A DNA stretch of 61,752 bases, from NCBI GenBank assembly GCA_013821985.1, contig PNJQ01000012.1:1-61752 (forward strand), given 5' to 3'. Under the pieces are notes generated by a model. The model had not been told where the DNA came from. It saw only the letters and a list, made by a program, of their open reading frames with translations, and ran no database searches. Made by a program: the position numbers and the translations under genes. The DNA is from Opitutus sp. (lineage in GTDB: Bacteria > Verrucomicrobiota > Verrucomicrobiia > Opitutales > Opitutaceae). Of this stretch, positions 4,366 through 37,889 are shown in pieces. How positions within the stretch are numbered: position 1 is the stretch's first letter; each line of letters begins with the position of its first letter.

Positions 4366-4968
4366 TTAGCGCTGGGCGCCGGCGTCGTTGCGCCAGTGGT
4401 ATTCCATGTATTGCGCGGTTCGGGTGGCGGCCGCGTCGCCGTGGAGGCGCGCGACGACGTGCAGCGACACGTCGATGCCGGCGGAAATTCCTGCGGCGGT
4501 CAAAATGCGGCCGTTGTCGTGAAAACGTCGGTTGCCATGGACGCGCGCGCTGGGTGCGAGGCGGGCGAGTTCGTCGAGATTTTCGCGGTGCGTCGTGACA
4601 TCGAGCCCGTCGAGCAATCCGGCTTGCGCCAGGACGAGCGCGCCGGTGCAGACGGAGACGATGACCTCGGCGCCTTTCGCTTGCCGGCGCACCCACTCGA
4701 CAAGCGACGGTTTCTTGAGCAGCGCGCGCGTGCCGTAACCGCCGGGGATGACGAGCACGTTCGCGGCGGGTGCGCTTTCGAGCGTGTGGTCGGGAACGAT
4801 CTTGAGCCCGTTGCGCGCGAGAATGGTGCCGGGTTTTTCCGCGACGGTGTAGACATTGAAGAGCGTGTGCGCCGCCATCTCGTCGGTGACGGAGAACACT
4901 TCAAAGGGTCCGGCGAAGTCGAGGACCTCGACGTCGTCGAAGAGGAGAATGGCGGTGTTGCGGCGCAT
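4366..4968 (-). CDS. DJ-1/PfpI family protein (isonitrile hydratase / GlxA N-domain type)
   Basis: A 200-residue protein with a single class I glutamine-amidotransferase-like domain. It opens with TAILLFDDVEVLDFAGPFEV, the typical start of the GlxA/InhA branch. The nucleophile elbow is VSVCTGA with Cys107, and VLVIPGGYGTR supplies the oxyanion-hole glycines. ILTAAGISAGIDVSLHVV is the usual C-terminal motif of this branch. There is no AraC-type DNA-binding domain, so it is a free-standing enzyme or sensor rather than a GlxA regulator. Isonitrile hydratase is one possible activity, but the family is broad. It is flanked by inverted copies of an interspersed repeat. Confidence 0.87.
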   Translation of the reverse strand: MRRNTAILLFDDVEVLDFAGPFEVFSVTDEMAAHTLFNVYTVAEKPGTILARNGLKIVPDHTLESAPAANVLVIPGGYGTRALLKKPSLVEWVRRQAKGAEVIVSVCTGALVLAQAGLLDGLDVTTHRENLDELARLAPSARVHGNRRFHDNGRILTAAGISAGIDVSLHVVARLHGDAAATRTAQYMEYHWRNDAGAQR

Positions 4969-5044: not shown

Positions 5045-5115
5045 TGATGGGAGGGGCTTTATGCCCGACTGAGGATTCGCGAGTTGAACGTCGGGGCTTA
5101 AAGCCCCTCCCACCA
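5045..5115. repeat. REP-like palindrome (GGGAGGGGCTTTA family)
   Basis: Arms TGGGAGGGGCTTTATGCCCGAC (5048-5069) and its near-perfect complement (5090-5113) enclose a loop of about 20 bases. This is an intergenic repetitive-extragenic-palindrome type of element. Its architecture (TGGGAG, a GC run, TTTA, a GC run, GAC) matches the perfect palindrome found inside hrpA at 35436-35494. It may form an RNA hairpin between the MocR-like and DJ-1/PfpI genes, but it lacks a T-tract. Confidence 0.75.
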
Positions 5116-5240: not shown

Positions 5241-6710
5241 TCAGAGTTGCTGCTTCACGAGGTCGCCAAGCGTTTTGAGCGCGGCGTCCATCTCGTCGGA
5301 CCAGGGCTGGCTGCAGCTCATGCGGAGGCAGTTGCGGTAACGGTCTTTCACGGCGGAGAAGAGCGAGCCGGGGGCGGTGTTGATCTTGTGTTTCAACGCG
5401 TCCTTGCGGAGGCGCAGCGTGTCCACCTTTACGGGGAACTCGACCCAGATGTAATTGCCGCCTTGCGGACGGCTGTAGCGCGTGCCGTCGGGGAAGTGAC
5501 GCTGCATGCCCTGCAGGAACGAGTGCAGGTGCTCGCGATAGGCGCGGCGCAGCGAGCGGAGATGGTGGTCGTAGCCGCCGTCGCGCAGGAATTCCGCGAT
5601 CGTCTTCTGCAGGATGCGCGGCGTGCCCATCGTGTTGATGAATTTCAGGCGGCGGATGCGCTCGAGGTAGCGCCCCGGCGCGGTCCAGCCGACGTGGAAG
5701 CCGGGCGCGAGCGTCTTGCCGAAAGAGGAGCAGAGCATCACGCGGCCATCGCGGTCCCAGGCCTTCAGCGGCTTCGGGCGCACGTCGCCGAAATGCGTGT
5801 CGCCGTAGATGTCATCTTCGATGATCGGCACGTCGTGGGCCGAGAGCAGTTCGTAGAGGCGCTGCTTTTTTTCGTCCGGCATGAGCGAGCCGAGCGGGTT
5901 GTGGAAATTCGGCATCAGCATCACGACTTTCACGTCGTTGTTCTTCAACGCGTCCTGCAGCGCGTCGAAGCACATGCCTTGGCGCGAGCAGGTCGGGATC
6001 TCGAGCGCGCGGAGGTTGAGCGCCTGGATGATTTCCAGAAAACCAAAGTAGGCGGGCGTCTCGATCGCGACGGTGTCACCGGGTTTAGTGACGGCGCGGA
6101 GGCAAAGATTGAGCGCCTCGGTGGCGCCGGAGGTGACGACCATTTCGTCGTGCGCGATCGGCACACCGGCTTGCAAATAGCGGCGGGCGATCTCGCGCGT
6201 GAGCGGCTCGTAGCCCCAGTTCATGCCCGGGCGGCCGATGAGCGACGGATCACGGCGCGCGACACTGCCGAGCATGCGCGCGAGTTTCTTTGTCGGAAAA
6301 AGCGAGTGGTGCGGACAAGCGCTGCCGAACGGCACGTAGTCCGGGTTGAGCGCGACTTCCATGACGTCGGCCGTGAGATCGTTCACACCGACGAAGGCCG
6401 GTTTACACATCGGTTTCGCCATGCGCGGCTCAGGCGCGCTGGTCAGTGCGCGCGGGCGAACGTAGTAGCCGGATTGCGGGCGCGCCTCGAGGTAGCCGCG
6501 GTTTTCCAGCACCGTGTAGGCCTGCAACACCGTCGCGATCGAGACATCGCGTTGACGCGACATGATGCGGACCGAAGGCACGCGATGACCTGGGCGCAGC
6601 GTGCCCTGTTCGATGAGGTTTTGGAGCGAGTCAGCGAGCTCCGCGTAGAGCGGGCGCGCGGCGGCTTTCGCGAGGGAAAGCGGCTTGGGGGTAATGACGG
6701 TCTGGATCAT
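5241..6710 (-). CDS. MocR-like regulator: GntR-type HTH fused to aminotransferase I domain
   Basis: A 489-residue fusion. Residues 15-85 form a winged helix of the GntR family (RPLYAELADSLQNLIEQGTL, then the VLQAYTVLENRGYLEARPQSG helix-wing). Residues 110-489 form a fold-type I aminotransferase domain with the PLP lysine K332 in SSFGKTLAPGFHVGW and NPLG in the substrate region. MocR proteins usually bind PLP, act as transcription factors and often regulate a divergent or adjacent gene. The start at 6710 is chosen because the domain begins there; the frame extends 38 residues upstream without homology. Unusually for the family no divergent partner is present, since the next gene is also leftward. 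Confidence 0.88.
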   Translation of the reverse strand: MIQTVITPKPLSLAKAAARPLYAELADSLQNLIEQGTLRPGHRVPSVRIMSRQRDVSIATVLQAYTVLENRGYLEARPQSGYYVRPRALTSAPEPRMAKPMCKPAFVGVNDLTADVMEVALNPDYVPFGSACPHHSLFPTKKLARMLGSVARRDPSLIGRPGMNWGYEPLTREIARRYLQAGVPIAHDEMVVTSGATEALNLCLRAVTKPGDTVAIETPAYFGFLEIIQALNLRALEIPTCSRQGMCFDALQDALKNNDVKVVMLMPNFHNPLGSLMPDEKKQRLYELLSAHDVPIIEDDIYGDTHFGDVRPKPLKAWDRDGRVMLCSSFGKTLAPGFHVGWTAPGRYLERIRRLKFINTMGTPRILQKTIAEFLRDGGYDHHLRSLRRAYREHLHSFLQGMQRHFPDGTRYSRPQGGNYIWVEFPVKVDTLRLRKDALKHKINTAPGSLFSAVKDRYRNCLRMSCSQPWSDEMDAALKTLGDLVKQQL

Positions 6711-29160: not shown

Positions 29161-30126
29161 CTAGCCGAGCCGCGCGGCGAAGTATTCCAGCTTCACCTTC
29201 GGCGCCACCACCGCGAGCAACGCCGCGGTCGCGATTTCCTGGCTCGCCAGCGTCGGCACTTCGACCAGCACGCAGCGGCGTAAAGTGCGCGATGCCGCGC
29301 CCGAGCGATTCAGATGTGCAAACGCCAGCGCGGACTGAAGCGGAGAGAGGCTCGGGTTGTAGGCCGCATTTCCCGCATAACGTCCCGTGACGACCGCGCC
29401 GTCCGAAAATTCGAGCGCGACGCCGGAAAATTGACCGGCATCCGGAGTCGGGTAGGGGGCGTAGCTCGCACGCGCGGCGTCCAACGCCATTGCCACGACA
29501 TGGTCGCGCGCCGCACCGCGCTTGATCGTGAGTGTCGGGGCGCCCTGCGGCGGATCCATGAGGCCGCCGCGCACGCCCAAGGCGGACGGACCGAACGCCT
29601 GGGGCAGAAGGTCGCCGAGCGGGTTGGATCTCCACGCGCCGGATTTCGCCGCGGGCATGAAGATCGGCAGTTCGCCGCCTGTCGCCAATTCGTTGAGGAA
29701 TTGCCGGCAATGGCCGCATGGGGCCGCGCTCACTGCGAGTGCGCTGAGTCCACGTTCACCATTGAGCCAGGCGTTGTTCACCGCGCACTGCTCGGCGTGC
29801 AGCGTGAAGTTCAGAGCGATCCCGCTGAATTCGATGTTCGCGCCGAAATAGAGAGTCGGTGCGTCGCCCGCACCGAGTTCACCGGCGACCACCACGCCGA
29901 CCTGATACGCCGAAACCGGAACGATCGCGTAGTGTTGGGCGACGGGCACGAGCATCATCATCCAGCCCGGCAAATCCAGTCGCAGCGTGCGCATCATCTC
30001 CGCGCTGATCGCGGCGGGAACCACGCCGCCGGTGTCCCACAATGCATCGATCGGCGCCCGCGCCGCGCGCGGCAGACGGGCGATTTGGGCTTTCCATGCC
30101 GCCGAACGCGAAGAGCTCGATTTCAT
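29161..30126 (-). CDS. cdd: cytidine deaminase (E. coli-type dimeric)
   Basis: A 321-residue pyrimidine salvage enzyme that hydrolyses cytidine and deoxycytidine to uridine and deoxyuridine. The zinc site is LHAEQ (His110, catalytic Glu112) plus APCGHC (Cys137, Cys140), in the pattern of the long two-domain E. coli Cdd in which one Zn ligand is His. A second, catalytically empty domain follows (about 200-321, with YAPYPTPDAGQFSGVALEF). It is slightly longer than E. coli Cdd (294). The start at 30126 is the first ATG before the homologous region. A deoA homologue nearby acts in the same salvage route. Confidence 0.94.
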   Translation of the reverse strand: MKSSSSRSAAWKAQIARLPRAARAPIDALWDTGGVVPAAISAEMMRTLRLDLPGWMMMLVPVAQHYAIVPVSAYQVGVVVAGELGAGDAPTLYFGANIEFSGIALNFTLHAEQCAVNNAWLNGERGLSALAVSAAPCGHCRQFLNELATGGELPIFMPAAKSGAWRSNPLGDLLPQAFGPSALGVRGGLMDPPQGAPTLTIKRGAARDHVVAMALDAARASYAPYPTPDAGQFSGVALEFSDGAVVTGRYAGNAAYNPSLSPLQSALAFAHLNRSGAASRTLRRCVLVEVPTLASQEIATAALLAVVAPKVKLEYFAARLG

Positions 30127-30231
30127 CGTGCGGCGAGTGAATGCCCGCGCCCTTGGCGGGTCAATGCGCCGCCGATTCCCTTGCCCGAAAATCGGCCGCG
30201 GACTTGCACCCGTTCCCGCTATGCTGGCAGC

Positions 30232-31320
30232 ATGATTCAGCTCGAACATCCCGTTCCCGTGACTGCCGCCGTCCACCAATTGCCCTCGTTTCGCACGATG
30301 TATCGCGCGATCTCGCGGCGCGACCCGGCTTATGAAGGCGTGTTTTACACCTGCGTCAAAACCACCGGAATCTTTTGTCGGCCGACGTGCCGCGCGAAAT
30401 TTGCGAAGGCGGAGAATGTCGAATTTGTCGCCTCCGTTACCGAGGCGCTCCACGGCGGCTATCGCCCGTGCCGCTTGTGTCATCCGATGGATGCAAATCG
30501 TCCGGTGCCCGCGCTCGTCGAGCGGTTGCGCCGCGCCGTGGAGGAATCCGCGGAAGGCCGCGTGACCGACAAGGATCTCGCCGCGATGGCCATCGAACCA
30601 TCGACCGCGCGTCGGCAATTCAAGGCGTATTATTCAATGACGTTCCACGCCTACCAGCGGGCGCGCCGCATGGGTCTGGCACTGCACGGCATCAAGTCCG
30701 GCAAACCCGTCGTCGAGGCGCAGCTCGAAGGCGGCTACGAATCGACCAGCGGATTCCGCGAGGCATTTGCGCGTATTTTTGGCGACGCACCAAGCGCAGC
30801 GAAGGGCCGCGCGTGCCTCGTCGGCCGTCGCATTGAGACGCCGCTCGGCACCATGCTGGCCCTCGCAGACGATGCGGGCTTGCGCCTGCTGGAATTCGTC
30901 GATCGTCGCGGACTCGAGCGCGAACTCATGCTTTTGCGCCGCCGGCTGAAGTGCGTGATCGTTCCCGGCAACAACCCCACGCTCGACGCGACGGCGGCGC
31001 AGCTCGCCCGCTATTTCGCCGGCGAGTCACTGACGTTCGATTTGCCGCTCGCGCCGGTCGGCTCGGATTTTCAACGCCGTGTTTGGGCGGAATTACAACG
31101 CATCCCGCCCGCCCGGACGCGGAGTTATTTGGAGATGGCCGGCCACGTCGGCGTGCCGAAGGCCGCCCGCGCCATCGGTCGCGCCAACGGTTCGAACATG
31201 ATCGCACTCGTGATCCCGTGCCACCGCGTGATCAATGCGAATGGCACGCTTTGCGGCTATGCGGGCGGTCTCTGGCGCAAGCAGCGGCTGCTCGATCACG
31301 AGCGGAAATTCGCCTCCTGA
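30232..31320 (+). CDS. ada: Ada-type bifunctional regulator / O6-methylguanine-DNA methyltransferase
   Basis: A 362-residue DNA repair protein. The N-terminal Ada domain has the zinc/methyl-acceptor cysteines TTGIFCRPTCRAK (Cys49, Cys53) and YRPCRLCHP (Cys80, Cys83). An AraC-type HTH follows (about 95-185, VEAQLEGGYESTSGFREAFA). The C-terminal methyltransferase has GTxxSY-type RTRSYLEMAG and the active site IPCHRV with Cys330. In E. coli, methylated Ada activates its own gene; the same is likely here. It is divergent from cdd with a 105-base gap. The start at 30232 gives the family N-terminus, although the frame is open far upstream. Confidence 0.95.
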   Translation: MIQLEHPVPVTAAVHQLPSFRTMYRAISRRDPAYEGVFYTCVKTTGIFCRPTCRAKFAKAENVEFVASVTEALHGGYRPCRLCHPMDANRPVPALVERLRRAVEESAEGRVTDKDLAAMAIEPSTARRQFKAYYSMTFHAYQRARRMGLALHGIKSGKPVVEAQLEGGYESTSGFREAFARIFGDAPSAAKGRACLVGRRIETPLGTMLALADDAGLRLLEFVDRRGLERELMLLRRRLKCVIVPGNNPTLDATAAQLARYFAGESLTFDLPLAPVGSDFQRRVWAELQRIPPARTRSYLEMAGHVGVPKAARAIGRANGSNMIALVIPCHRVINANGTLCGYAGGLWRKQRLLDHERKFAS

Positions 31321-31477: not shown

Positions 31478-31588
31478 CCTTCGCCAAGGCTTCGGCTGGC
31501 AGGCCAGCCTGAGCGAGTGAGGATTTTATCGGCGCAGGAGGGTCCGAATTAACAGGGAGAAGGCTGCCGTCCGAAGCCTTGGCGAAGG
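31478..31588. repeat. 18-base inverted repeat directly after tRNA-Leu
   Basis: CCTTCGCCAAGGCTTCGG (31478-31495) and its perfect complement CCGAAGCCTTGGCGAAGG (31571-31588) enclose 75 bases. It starts 1 base after the CCA end. It could be an interspersed mobile palindrome inserted next to the tRNA or part of transcript termination; no T-tract follows either arm. No integrase gene is present. Confidence 0.65.
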
Positions 31589-33698: not shown

Positions 33699-36600
33699 AT
33701 GCCGCCCCGCCGTCCCACTCCCAGCTTTCGCATCGAGTTTCCGCCGGAACTCCCGATCAGCGCGCGTGCGGACGAGATCATCGGCCTGCTGCTGAAACAT
33801 CAGGTGATCGTGCTCGCAGGCGAAACCGGCTCGGGTAAGACGACGCAAATTCCCAAAATGGTCCTTGCGGCCGGCGGCGGCACGCGCGGGAAGATTGCCT
33901 GCACGCAACCGCGGCGCGTGGCGGCGACTTCCGTGTCGCGGCGTGTCGCCGAAGAGCTGAACGTCACCTATGGCCGCGAGGTCGGCTGCAAAATCCGGTT
34001 CGCCGATCAGACCTCCGACGCGACCGTCATCAAGTTCATGACCGACGGCATGCTGCTCGCCGAATTACAGGGCGACCCGGAGCTGCGCGACTACGACACC
34101 ATCATCGTCGATGAGGCGCACGAGCGTTCGCTCAATATCGATTTTATCCTCGGTCACCTCCGCCGCCTGCGCGTGCGCCGGCCGGAGCTGAAAATCGTCA
34201 TCACGTCCGCCACGATCGACACCCAGGCATTTTCCGAGGCATTCGACGGCGCGCCGATCATCGAAGTGTCGGGTCGGACTTATCCGGTTGAGGTTATTTA
34301 TGCGCCGCTGGAGGAGTTGGTAGGGGCCGTTGCCCCCAACGGCCCGTCCGAGAAGGCGGTAGAGGGCAACCGCCCCTCCCAGAACCGGAGCGACGAGTTC
34401 ACCTACATCGACGGCGCGGTCGAAGCGGTGGAGCGTGTGCTGCAGGAGAGCGCGAGCGGCGACATTCTCGTTTTTCTGCCGACGGAGCGCGATATCCGCG
34501 AGGTCACCGATCTCCTCGAAGGCCGGAAAGGGCGCACCGTCGAAGTCGTGCCCTTGTTCGGGCGGCTGACCAACGCGGAGCAGCAACGCGTGTTTTCGCC
34601 CACGCAGAAGCGCAAGGTTGTCGTCGCGACGAACATCGCCGAAACCTCGCTGACGATCCCGGGCATTCGCTTCGTCATCGATACGGGCCTCGCGCGCATC
34701 AGCCGCTATGTGCCGCAGAGCCGCACGCGCCGCTTGCCGGTCGAGCCCATCGCGCAGAGCAGCGCCGATCAACGCAAGGGCCGCTGCGGCCGCGTGAGCG
34801 ACGGCGTGTGCATCCGCCTCTATTCGGAGCAGGACTTCAGCGAGCGTCCGCGTTTCGCCCAGCCGGAAATCCAGCGCAGCAATCTCGCGGATGTCATCCT
34901 CCGGATGAAGGCATTCGGGCTCGGCGACATTGAAGAGTTTCCCTTTCTCAACGCGCCGCCCGCGAAAGGCATTCGTTCCGGTTACGGGCTGCTTCACGAA
35001 CTCGGCGCGATCGACGACGCCGGCGTGCTGACCGATCTCGGCCGCGACCTCGCGCACCTGCCGGTTGATCCGACGGTCGGCCGCATGATTTTGCAGGCGC
35101 GGAACGAGAAAGCGCTGCGCGAGGTGCTCGTCATCGCCGCCGCGCTCAGCATTCAGGATCCGCGGGAGCGTCCGCTCGATCAACAGGCCAAGGCCGACGC
35201 CGCGCACCGGCGTTTCACGCATCCGGACTCGGACTTTCTCACGCTGCTGGCGATCTGGGAGGCTTATCACGACGACTTCGAGGGGCTGTCGCTCGGCAAG
35301 CTCCGTAAATTCTGCACGGCGCACTTTCTCTCGTTCATGCGCATGCGCGAGTGGCGTGACGTCCACGCGCAACTCGTCGATGTGATCGAAGGCCGCGAGG
35401 GATTCGAGCCGACGTCGGTTTACGACGGTGTGACGGTGGGAGCGGGTTTACCCCGCGACGCGAGACCAACGTCGCGGGGTAAACCCGCTCCCACCCCCGA
35501 GTCGGTCCGCGATCTCACGATGCTCACGCCGGCGTTCCGCGCGATTCATCGCTCCATCCTCGCCGGCCTGCTCGGCAACATCGCGACGCGCCTCGATGAC
35601 GGCACGTATCACGCGGCTCACGATCGGAAGGTCGCAGTGTTTCCCGGCTCGGCATTATTCGAACGGCAGCAGCGGGAGAAAGCAGTCGCGCCCCGCAAGG
35701 AGGGCGCCGCGAAGCCCAAAGTCGCGCGGTGGATCATGGCCTCCGAGATCATGGAGACGGGCCGGCTCTACGCGCGGACCTGCGCGCGCATCGACCCGCA
35801 TTGGGCGCTGGACCTCGGCGCACACCTACTGCGCGTGTCACACAGCGAACCGTTCTGGAGCATCGACGCTGGTCGCGTGCTCGTGAAGGAACGTCGCCGC
35901 CTTTACAACCTTGAGCTCGAAACGCGTTCGGTGAGTTACGGGAAAATCAATCCGCGCGAAGCGACGGAAATTTTCATCCGGGAGGGATTGGTGGGCGACA
36001 CCGTGACGTTCCCGCTCGACTTCATCGCGCACAATCGGCGCATCCGCGAAAAGGCGGAGAACGTGCTCACGCGCCTGCGCGCGGCGGGTTACATGAACCT
36101 CGATGAAGCGGTGTATCGCTTCTACGCGCGGCGGTTGCTGCCGGAGACGGGGGACGCGTCGCTCTCGGGGCGTTTGGACCGGGGCGAAGGCGCCGCGGCG
36201 CCAGGAGAGGCGGCTGCGCTCTTCCTCGGCGTGAGCAGTGTGCCGGAGCTCGTCGATCTTGTTCGTCACCGGCAGACGACCGAGCCGAAGTTTTTGTTTT
36301 TGGGTGAGGACGACCTAAAGCCGCAGGTCGAGGAGACGCATGATCACACGGCTTTTCCGGAATCGGTGCCGATCGAGAATCGTGCGCTGCCGCTCAATTA
36401 CGCTTACAAACCCGGACAGGAGGACGACGGAGTGACGTTGCGCGTGTCGCTCGACGAAGCGGCGGAGCTTTCGCCCGCGACGCTCGATTGGGCCGTGCCC
36501 GGACATCTGACGGAGAAAATCGAACTCCTGCTCAAGGCGCTGCCGAAGGAGCAGCGGCGTTCGCTCATCCCGCTCGCGGAGACGGCCCAAGAGCTTGCCG

Positions 36601-37889
36601 CGGACATTCAGCTGATCGCTGCGCGCGAGCCGCAGCCCACGCTCACGCAGGCGCTCGCCGAGGTGCTCACCCAGCGGCTCGGACTGCACATCGATCCGCG
36701 GACGTGGGCTGGCAAAATCCTGCCCGATCACCTCCGTGTGCGTGTTGAAGTGGTCGATCAGCGCGGGACGGTGCTTGGCGCGAGTCGCGAGCTCGCGGAA
36801 TTGCAGACGCAGCTTGGCACGAAACAGCGCGAGGTCAGCCAGCACGCCGCCAGGAAGGACACGGGCGCCTGGCGCGCGGCCCGGGAGAAATGGGAGACTG
36901 CGCCCGCGGCGGACTGGAAATTCGGCGATCTGCCGGAGTCGATCATCGTGGCGGAGCACGCCGGCGTGCCGGTGCGCGCTTATCCGGGGCTCGCGGCGAG
37001 CGACGCGGGCGTCGCCGTGAAACTTTTCGCCACCGCGGACGACGCGCGCGAAGCGACGCGCGTCGGACTGCGACGATTAATGGAAACGGCGCTGCGCTAC
37101 GAACTCGGCTGGTTGGAAAAAGATCTGCGCGACTTGCGGGCGATCGGCACGTTGACGGTGACTCTGGCGCCGCTGGAGAAATTGCAGGCCGACGCACTGG
37201 AAGCGATCCGGCGCTGGGTGACGGACGGCGCGCGGGTAGGGGCCGTCGCCCTCAACGGACCTTCGCTCTCGACGGGAAAGGCGGTTGAGGGCAACCGCCC
37301 CTACCTCACGAAGGCGAACTTCGAACGCGCGGTGACGGCGGCGAAAGCCGAATTGCGCGGGCTCGTGCCGAAACTGACCGACTGGTTGCGCGAAATCCTC
37401 ACGCTCCGCTTGGCATTGCAGACGCACAAGACGCCGTATCCCGGGATGGAAAACGACCTCGCGACGCTCTTGCCGCCGGACTTGCTGCGCCGCACGCCGT
37501 TCGCACGGCTGAAGGAATTGCCACGCTACTTGAAGGGCATGCAGGCACGTGCGGAGCGTTGGAAGCGCGACCCGTCGAAGGATGCGTCGCGCGCGCGCGA
37601 GTTGCAGCCGTTCGTTCAAGCCACCCAGCGGCTCGGTGAGCGGGCGGGATACTTCCGGTGGCTGGTGGAAGAGTTTCGCGTGAGCCTCTTCGCGCAGGAG
37701 CTCGGCACGGCGGAGCCGGTTTCAGCCGTGCGACTCGAGCGCGCTTTGCAGGAAACGGTCGCAGGGAAATCGGGCGGCGCGGCGGAGCCCGGCGCACCGG
37801 CCACCCCGCCGAAGGTCAGCGTGCCATTGCCCACGAAGGGGCGCACGGTCCTGAAGAGCCTGGATGCCCTCGGGAATTTGCCGCGTTGA
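33699..37889 (+). CDS. hrpA: DEAH-box ATP-dependent RNA helicase HrpA with palindrome-derived insertions
   Basis: A 1396-residue helicase. Motif I is GETGSGKTTQ, motif Ia TQPRRVAATS, motif II DEAHERS, motif III SATID, and motif VI QRKGRCGR. The winged-helix/ratchet and OB regions follow, and the long C-terminal DUF3418 domain (about 760-1390) identifies HrpA rather than HrpB. E. coli HrpA has 1300 residues; part of the excess comes from three in-frame palindromic insertions at residues about 207-227, 580-599 and 1180-1202. Each lies between conserved blocks, in regions that vary between homologues. In E. coli HrpA helps resolve stalled ribosomes. The ATG at 33699 fits the family; the frame is open upstream. 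Confidence 0.95.
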   Translation: MPPRRPTPSFRIEFPPELPISARADEIIGLLLKHQVIVLAGETGSGKTTQIPKMVLAAGGGTRGKIACTQPRRVAATSVSRRVAEELNVTYGREVGCKIRFADQTSDATVIKFMTDGMLLAELQGDPELRDYDTIIVDEAHERSLNIDFILGHLRRLRVRRPELKIVITSATIDTQAFSEAFDGAPIIEVSGRTYPVEVIYAPLEELVGAVAPNGPSEKAVEGNRPSQNRSDEFTYIDGAVEAVERVLQESASGDILVFLPTERDIREVTDLLEGRKGRTVEVVPLFGRLTNAEQQRVFSPTQKRKVVVATNIAETSLTIPGIRFVIDTGLARISRYVPQSRTRRLPVEPIAQSSADQRKGRCGRVSDGVCIRLYSEQDFSERPRFAQPEIQRSNLADVILRMKAFGLGDIEEFPFLNAPPAKGIRSGYGLLHELGAIDDAGVLTDLGRDLAHLPVDPTVGRMILQARNEKALREVLVIAAALSIQDPRERPLDQQAKADAAHRRFTHPDSDFLTLLAIWEAYHDDFEGLSLGKLRKFCTAHFLSFMRMREWRDVHAQLVDVIEGREGFEPTSVYDGVTVGAGLPRDARPTSRGKPAPTPESVRDLTMLTPAFRAIHRSILAGLLGNIATRLDDGTYHAAHDRKVAVFPGSALFERQQREKAVAPRKEGAAKPKVARWIMASEIMETGRLYARTCARIDPHWALDLGAHLLRVSHSEPFWSIDAGRVLVKERRRLYNLELETRSVSYGKINPREATEIFIREGLVGDTVTFPLDFIAHNRRIREKAENVLTRLRAAGYMNLDEAVYRFYARRLLPETGDASLSGRLDRGEGAAAPGEAAALFLGVSSVPELVDLVRHRQTTEPKFLFLGEDDLKPQVEETHDHTAFPESVPIENRALPLNYAYKPGQEDDGVTLRVSLDEAAELSPATLDWAVPGHLTEKIELLLKALPKEQRRSLIPLAETAQELAADIQLIAAREPQPTLTQALAEVLTQRLGLHIDPRTWAGKILPDHLRVRVEVVDQRGTVLGASRELAELQTQLGTKQREVSQHAARKDTGAWRAAREKWETAPAADWKFGDLPESIIVAEHAGVPVRAYPGLAASDAGVAVKLFATADDAREATRVGLRRLMETALRYELGWLEKDLRDLRAIGTLTVTLAPLEKLQADALEAIRRWVTDGARVGAVALNGPSLSTGKAVEGNRPYLTKANFERAVTAAKAELRGLVPKLTDWLREILTLRLALQTHKTPYPGMENDLATLLPPDLLRRTPFARLKELPRYLKGMQARAERWKRDPSKDASRARELQPFVQATQRLGERAGYFRWLVEEFRVSLFAQELGTAEPVSAVRLERALQETVAGKSGGAAEPGAPATPPKVSVPLPTKGRTVLKSLDALGNLPR
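34319..34380. repeat. REP-like palindrome in hrpA, family GGTAGGGGCCGT, copy 1
   Basis: Arms GGTAGGGGCCGTTGCCCCC and GAGGGCAACCGCCCCTCCC are near-complementary over 19 bases. The element is 62 bases long and is translated in frame as VGAVAPNGPSEKAVEGNRPS between TYPVEVIYAPLEE and the YIDGAVEAVERVL block. Copy 2 at 37235-37305 has the same reading frame. Confidence 0.85.
35436..35494. repeat. perfect REP-like palindrome in hrpA, family GTGGGAGCGGGTTTA
   Basis: 25-base arms (35436-35460 and 35470-35494) are perfectly complementary around a 9-base loop, CGAGACCAA. The left arm begins GTGGGAGCGGGTTTACCCCG. It is translated as VGAGLPRDARPTSRGKPAPT without a stop. The design matches the intergenic palindrome at 5045-5115. 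A perfect 25-base stem in an mRNA implies recent insertion or selection on RNA structure. Confidence 0.9.
37235..37305. repeat. REP-like palindrome in hrpA, family GGTAGGGGCCGT, copy 2
   Basis: Left arm GGTAGGGGCCGTCGCCCTCA and right arm GAGGGCAACCGCCCCTACC are complementary with two mismatches over 22 bases. Translated in frame as VGAVALNGPSLSTGKAVEGN followed by RPYL, almost the peptide of copy 1. Confidence 0.88.

Follow-up and report, generated by a model that had tools for sequence, protein, structure and literature searches.

RAYT (REP-associated tyrosine) transposases are believed to copy REP dimers and to insert the copies, and in REPINs the REP units are reportedly paired head to head, as Bertels and Rainey are said to have set out for REPINs and RAYTs in 2011. 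In Gammaproteobacteria, a RAYT gene stands between two REPs of opposite orientation whose head is GT(A/G)G (Nunvar et al., 2010; PMC2817692). The limits of the GTAG superfamily, a stem of 5-13 bp and a loop of 2-20 nt, are given in Table 1 of Di Nocera et al. (2013; PMC3733652), and the same paper found the highest number of intragenic GTAG repeats in Opitutus terrae, with RNA helicases among the carriers. It also reports REPs in both uvrA genes of O. terrae, and different REPs at about one site in recB of two Xanthomonas species. Rickettsia palindromic elements (RPEs) are described there as in-frame palindromic repeats in genes of likely functional proteins; in the part of the paper available to us, the intragenic RPE-4 and RPE-6 of R. 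conorii belong to the CGTC class and have no linked transposase, and RPE-1 is longer. Within the open-licence literature searched, PMC3733652 was the only source bearing on REPs inside Opitutaceae genes (the available part of PMC8049555 held nothing on them), and we found no publication on HrpA loop reuse or frame choice.

The window, that is, the whole 61,752-nucleotide stretch of DNA that was analyzed, is contig C12 of an Opitutus sp. genome (G000; 3.74 Mb, 117 contigs, 79% complete); below, G-numbers denote genomes of the genus comparison, L-numbers loci, and C-numbers contigs of G000. The product of its hrpA gene has the Pfam domains DEAD, Helicase_C, HA2, OB_NTP_bind, and DUF3418, the HrpA domain set, and by sequence its nearest solved structures are the HrpA entries 9ggr and 9gft. 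Comparison of this gene with four congeners gave a dN/dS of 0.11-0.13. An earlier reading of the window, made from its letters only (the sequence-only reading), had placed three palindromes in hrpA, and repeat search together with unit matching confirmed them (Table 1). That reading held protein-coding palindromes to be non-standard in this phylum, which is wrong given the intragenic GTAG repeats of O. terrae (PMC3733652), and it cited the RPEs as a known parallel; the closest are GTAG REPs, the intragenic RPE-4 and RPE-6 being of the CGTC class in the available part of that paper.

Table 1. Positions of hrpA, its three in-frame elements, and the other REP dimers discussed
Feature	Position or locus	Strand	Remarks
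hrpA, DEAH-box RNA helicase, 1396 aa	33699..37889	+	ATG at 33699; host of the three elements
Element 1, site S1, family-1 GTAG REP head-head dimer	34319..34380		encodes residues 208-227
Element 2, site S2, family-2 GTGG REP head-head dimer	35435..35495		encodes residues 580-599
Element 3, site S3, family-1 GTAG REP head-head dimer	37235..37305		encodes residues 1180-1202
Intergenic family-2-type REP dimer, fourth REP dimer in the window	5045..5115		arms 5045-5066/5094-5115, 91% complementary
In-frame REP dimers in nine other genes of G007	L292, L293, L296, L297, L301, L304, L308, L313, L273		

All three palindromes are head-to-head dimers of GTAG-type REP elements (candidate REPINs): they show the geometry of two inverted REP units and a spacer, which in a REPIN would move as one. 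The units of element 1 lie at 34320-34344 (+, no mismatches to the family-1 unit) and 34355-34379 (-, 2 mismatches); the head at the 34379 end is worn, with CTCC for CTACC, and this element was missed by the inverted-repeat search. Element 2 consists of two 26-nt arms (35435-35460 and 35470-35495) that are 100% complementary, with units at 35436-35459 (+) and 35471-35494 (-); the perfect stem and 9-base loop of the sequence-only reading therefore stood, and its 25-base arm did not. The arms of element 3 (37235-37264 and 37276-37305) are 83% complementary and contain units at 37236-37260 (+) and 37280-37304 (-). Family 1 has the head GTAG and family 2 the head GTGG, both heads of the GTAG superfamily, and one of the six heads, that at 34379, is worn. 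By eye, the family-1 unit of element 1 forms a stem in which GGGCCGTTG pairs with CAACGGCCC around CCCC, and in the family-2 unit GCGGG pairs with CCCGC around TTTAC; the unit stem-loops of both families fit the superfamily limits.

Elements 1, 2, and 3 encode the peptides VGAVAPNGPSEKAVEGNRPS, VGAGLPRDARPTSRGKPAPT, and VGAVALNGPSLSTGKAVEGNRPY, respectively, and all are open in the hrpA frame with no stop, as had been claimed. The further claim that both family-1 copies are read in one frame also held, but is in part a constraint, as stops are frequent in the other frames and element 3 is open in just one. Codon usage in the three elements is foreign to hrpA (-0.16, -0.57, and -0.07 bits per codon, against a mean of 0.37 for the hrpA ORF). 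Across 33 HrpA coding sequences, from our genome and relatives whose reading frames were picked by a homology rule, we counted 24 inverted repeats, among which a few are short and unlike REPs, versus 1, 3, 4, 2, and 5 in five synonymous-codon shuffles.

Family 1 is a dispersed repeat family found mostly between genes. In the 223 kb of G000 that were read around matches, we observed it at 27 places (at least one unit with no more than 3 mismatches, units within 60 nt being counted once), 22 of them intergenic by the gene caller and two in hrpA; the sequence-only reading had proposed this count, and its expectation of copies elsewhere in the genome proved right. All ten unit patterns together, weak units with up to 5 mismatches included, marked 56 places in the same 223 kb, and 11 of these were flagged inside gene calls. 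Four trusted internal dimers were found there: three in hrpA and one in frame in uvrA (a GTAG dimer at G000:C57:20301-20355, L106, in a gene for which the UvrA domain was found). We dropped C39:14489 (an over-long ORF upstream of an apparent PII, by eye), C17:43581 (C-terminal in an 88-aa ORF), and C68:4490, C68:5729, and C57:20748 (5 mismatches per unit, so that the matches are probably accidental). We did not count as internal dimers C6:71467, where one family-2 unit lies within an ORF of 427 aa, or C70:15742-15794 (L107), where a REP dimer extends the C terminus of a HypC protein. A generic GTAG dimer pattern matched 17 places in G000, versus 2 for the reversed control. The fourth REP dimer of the window lies between gene calls ending at 4968 and starting at 5244. 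Separately, an inverted repeat with 25-nt arms (92% complementary and separated by 61 nt) occurs at 31478-31588, past the gene call at 29314-31320, and a core related to it, CGCCAAGGCTTCGG, is present once each in 7 of 313 loci.

We also searched for RAYT and Y1 transposases, another check that had been proposed. PF01797 matched seven places in our genome, and Y1_Tnp matches were present in 12 of the 13 genus genomes, ours included. Among five G000 proteins scanned, the one on contig C14 scored 85.4 bits against the NCBIfam model for REP-associated tyrosine transposase (cut-off 80 bits), and the other four scored 60-63 bits, under the cut-off. The C14 RAYT gene sits between inverted copies of the GTGGGAGGGGCTTTACGCCCC unit, which is the same type as the dimer at 5045-5115 and is of the element 2 type with a changed stem; RAYT-type genes are thus present, and this one is flanked by family-2-type REPs. 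RAYT genes of the genus also have other repeat types known from HrpA on either side: Fh inverted and exact (G001, L253), Fk inverted (G008 L229 and G005 L244), and Fg in direct orientation with 2-3 mismatches (G002 L246 and G007 L257). The direct orientation of Fg counts against its link, because RAYT units should be inverted. No RAYT gene flanked by family 1 was found in the loci scanned, which cover part of the Y1_Tnp matches of the genus and, for G000, a genome that is 79% complete. Overall, GTAG-type dimers, dispersed copies, and RAYT-type genes bear out the earlier description of REP-like mobile palindromes. A second, larger class of Y1 transposase (∼270-340 aa, with an MRNHYH motif in several) occurs at L036, L037, L038, and similar loci; the gene in L037 has an internal stop, and in the flank scan, flanking GTAG units were absent from most genes of this class.

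We think it very likely that the three elements are selfish REP dimers that were spread by RAYTs and survive just in tolerant loops and frames. RAYT transposases would copy and insert the dimers, and most copies would land, or be kept, between genes. To survive inside a gene, an insert would have to keep the frame, bring no stop, encode a harmless peptide, and fall in a surface loop that tolerates ∼20-25 extra residues. HrpA would offer at least six such loops, which within the genus would have gained copies, lost them to wear, and gained others from different REP families; the inserts would be neutral for HrpA, and selection would act after insertion.

Comparison of HrpA across the genus showed REPs in six loops, five of them in more than one species. 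The further loops are Sa near residue 442, Sb near 814-845, and Sc near 1311 (Sc clearly in G005 alone). At S1, a short loop with no palindromic insert was seen in G006, G010, G009, and G004, family 1 in G005, another repeat in G012 and G003, a third, worn repeat in G002 and G007, and other or worn sequence in G001 and G008. S2 holds a worn family-2 copy in G002 and another repeat in G007; the loop is short in G005, G006, and G010, and longer with no palindrome in G001, G008, G012, and G003. At S3, we observed family 1 in G001, two other repeats in G005 and G007, worn sequence in G002 and G008, and no insert in G012, G003, G006, and G021. By eye, Sa, Sb, and S3 each contain GTAG units in the HrpA of G015. 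The segments are hence absent or different in relatives, as the sequence-only reading had expected, and neither of the outcomes that it had named as speaking against it (homologues with the same residues and no palindrome, or elements missing elsewhere in the genome) came true. In G000 itself, Sb (36138-36230, residues 814-845) is a stretch of ∼30 aa with no palindrome where congeners have REP dimers; it may be a worn-out REP copy.

Farther afield, 79 HrpA sequences from named genomes contained 13 inverted repeats, namely 2 runs of N, 4 GTAG/GTGG dimers, and 7 repeats without such ends. The GTAG- or GTGG-headed dimers were confined to L143 (three) and L183 (one), both from Verrucomicrobia/Opitutaceae. 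L143 carries a family-2-like dimer at S2 and an extra REP site near residues 970-981 that lies outside the six-site test described below; of the outgroup junctions there, 977-981 takes 7 lengths and 970-976 takes 2.

Could each loop have received one ancient insertion that was inherited and later made uniform, or exchanged, through recombination with REP copies elsewhere in the genome? On the HrpA tree, all five members of the G000 clade (G000, G001, G002, G007, and G008; support 0.96) have a long S3 loop, the right-hand junction of S3 falls by eye at one same base in six species, and the S3 arms of G000 and G001 (24/26 and 25/26 identical, 49/52 bases) are far more alike than the synonymous sites of the two genes (synonymous divergence 0.63), all of which would suit such a history. 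The S3 spacers, however, match at only 7/19 positions. Shared descent without homogenization would not give arms alike and a spacer unlike, and the simplest reading of these sequences points to two family-1 dimers that landed independently at the same S3 codon; gene conversion is a possible account of the likeness of the arms. Also against a single ancient insertion, G005 has family 1 at S1 while its tree neighbors G006 and G010, outside the G000 clade (weak support, 0.27 and 0.69), are empty, and L143, elsewhere in the tree, has its family-2-like dimer at S2. We therefore consider one inherited insertion per loop unlikely, if still the best of the alternatives.

The RAYT-spread reading supposes that the loops tolerate inserts, as the sequence-only reading had suggested for long helicase loops. 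In 41 outgroup HrpA sequences, in which no GTAG-headed dimers were found, 25 of 1173 core junctions take at least three lengths, and these 25 include every one of the six REP sites (hypergeometric P 5e-11). The test leans somewhat toward REP sites, where inserts leave fewer core columns and hence longer intervals. In AlphaFold models (mean pLDDT 85.1 and 82.6), the three inserts are unstructured and lie between helices, with pLDDT <50 at residues 212-232 for element 1, 580-586 for element 2, and 1185-1197 (model residues 630-642) for element 3; all three are thus predicted to be disordered. The variable length of the six sites and this predicted disorder support the claim of tolerance.

Another possibility is that RAYTs pick HrpA loops as targets for a DNA sequence or single-strand structure present there, tolerance being secondary. 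A strict pattern found 296 dimers in the 13 genus genomes, five of them in hrpA (G000 1, G001 1, G005 2, and G007 1) versus 0.28 expected by length, an ∼18-fold excess (P 1.2e-5, or 2.2e-4 for four) from a test in which some gene and genome lengths were rounded and the gene was chosen because it had dimers. The pattern spans 42-72 bases and misses longer dimers, so that the hrpA counts are low (in G007, 1 counted and 4 visible). We take this excess as a lead, and tolerance alone may fall short as its cause; the coinciding S3 right-hand junctions could likewise mean a target preference. Against targeting, the flanks of 74 dimers showed no strong common motif except one G adjoining GTAG (112/148), and the length of all six loops also varies where REPs are absent. 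Furthermore, 9 of the about 50 dimers read in G007 (50 of 82 places; 51 dimers, or 50 with identical elements merged) lie inside other genes. Eight of these nine genes have Pfam assignments (PurL-like, FMN dehydrogenase, GH43, MenD-like TPP enzyme, DUF58, SpoU methylase, RND pump, and GHL10), and in the ninth no Pfam domain was found. Of 18 dimers in 17 other genus loci, one is in a gene, for an FGGY-family sugar kinase (L129). In-gene status outside hrpA comes from a simple codon-usage gene caller, and in-frame status there is partly by construction, as a copy out of frame would have terminated the gene call. The sequences nevertheless indicate that translated REPs are probably not rare in the genus, hrpA being the richest gene seen, and we regard targeting as quite improbable. 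A function of the stems in hrpA mRNA (pausing, decay control, or helicase autoregulation), the other option of the sequence-only reading, would fit the perfect 26-nt palindrome of element 2 and the several genus HrpA genes with at least two strong palindromes, but deserves very little credence, because worn copies at S1 and S3 in G002 and G008 have by eye lost the pairing and kept the frame, the hrpA of G008 has no scoring palindrome and the same constraint (dN/dS 0.13 vs G000), stem sequence and site vary between species, and fresh REPs are expected to have stems anyway.

We also examined the frame in which the dimers are read. In hrpA, the phase tracks the element family and not the site: GTAGGGG, GTGGGAG, and GTAGGAG types are read GTA- or GTG-first, and at these same sites the phase of GTAGGGC types is GGT-AGG or TGT-AGG; outside hrpA, 3 of 10 GTAGGGC-type dimers are read GTA-first. 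Among HrpA dimers with at least two open frames, the least basic frame is the one used in 11 of 13, with 1 tie and 1 opposite case, which is element 2 itself, by one charge; this count draws on 17 HrpA dimers defined by a strict end pattern, under which at least three dimers that the eye can make out (G000 S1, G003 S1, and G007 S2) go undetected. In other genes, the least basic of at least two open frames is used in 8 of 9, the exception being L129. The sign test for the combined 19/21 gave 2e-4, a value that is overstated as the sequences are related. This bias suggests that the encoded peptide is under selection after insertion.

A more far-reaching version, which we hold to be doubtful, is that the HrpA loops are standing landing sites, where REP families that are not related, several having a RAYT of their own, repeatedly enter the same few bases and leave segments that are filtered by frame and charge and remodel the loops, possibly with some targeting of hrpA. 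If true, mobile elements would be driving the evolution of loops in a conserved protein. The genus in any case offers a repeated natural experiment in which selfish palindromes become protein sequence, in one gene with six loops and several REP families, and with filled, worn, and empty loop states all present in close relatives. Whether RAYT target choice or selection decides where copies persist, and whether peptide charge decides the surviving frame, can now be tested. There is also a warning here, in that the long loops that models of Opitutaceae proteins render with low confidence may stem from mobile DNA acquired recently.

With the Rickettsia RPEs, the HrpA elements share palindromes in frame inside genes; unlike them, they have GTAG or GTGG heads and linked RAYTs (for several families), and we rejected membership of the RPE CGTC class on these grounds. 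The likeness to REPINs and RAYTs lies in units that stand head to head and in a RAYT gene between inverted GT(A/G)G-headed REPs, whereas, compared with the gammaproteobacterial REPs and RAYTs as far as the available text describes them, the copies here are translated, occur in Opitutaceae, and include one type, Fg, that flanks its RAYT in direct orientation. Closest are the GTAG REPs of O. terrae, with the same GTAG/GTGG heads, short stem-loops, head-to-head dimers, and, for some of the families here, RAYT linkage, and with RNA helicases and uvrA also as carriers in the same bacterial family. In its available part, PMC3733652 mainly lists occurrences, and here six HrpA loops were compared genus-wide, their tolerance was tested, and a frame bias was seen. 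In-gene GTAG repeats were thus already known in Opitutaceae, and what is added is that different repeats have repeatedly come to occupy the same HrpA loops in related species.
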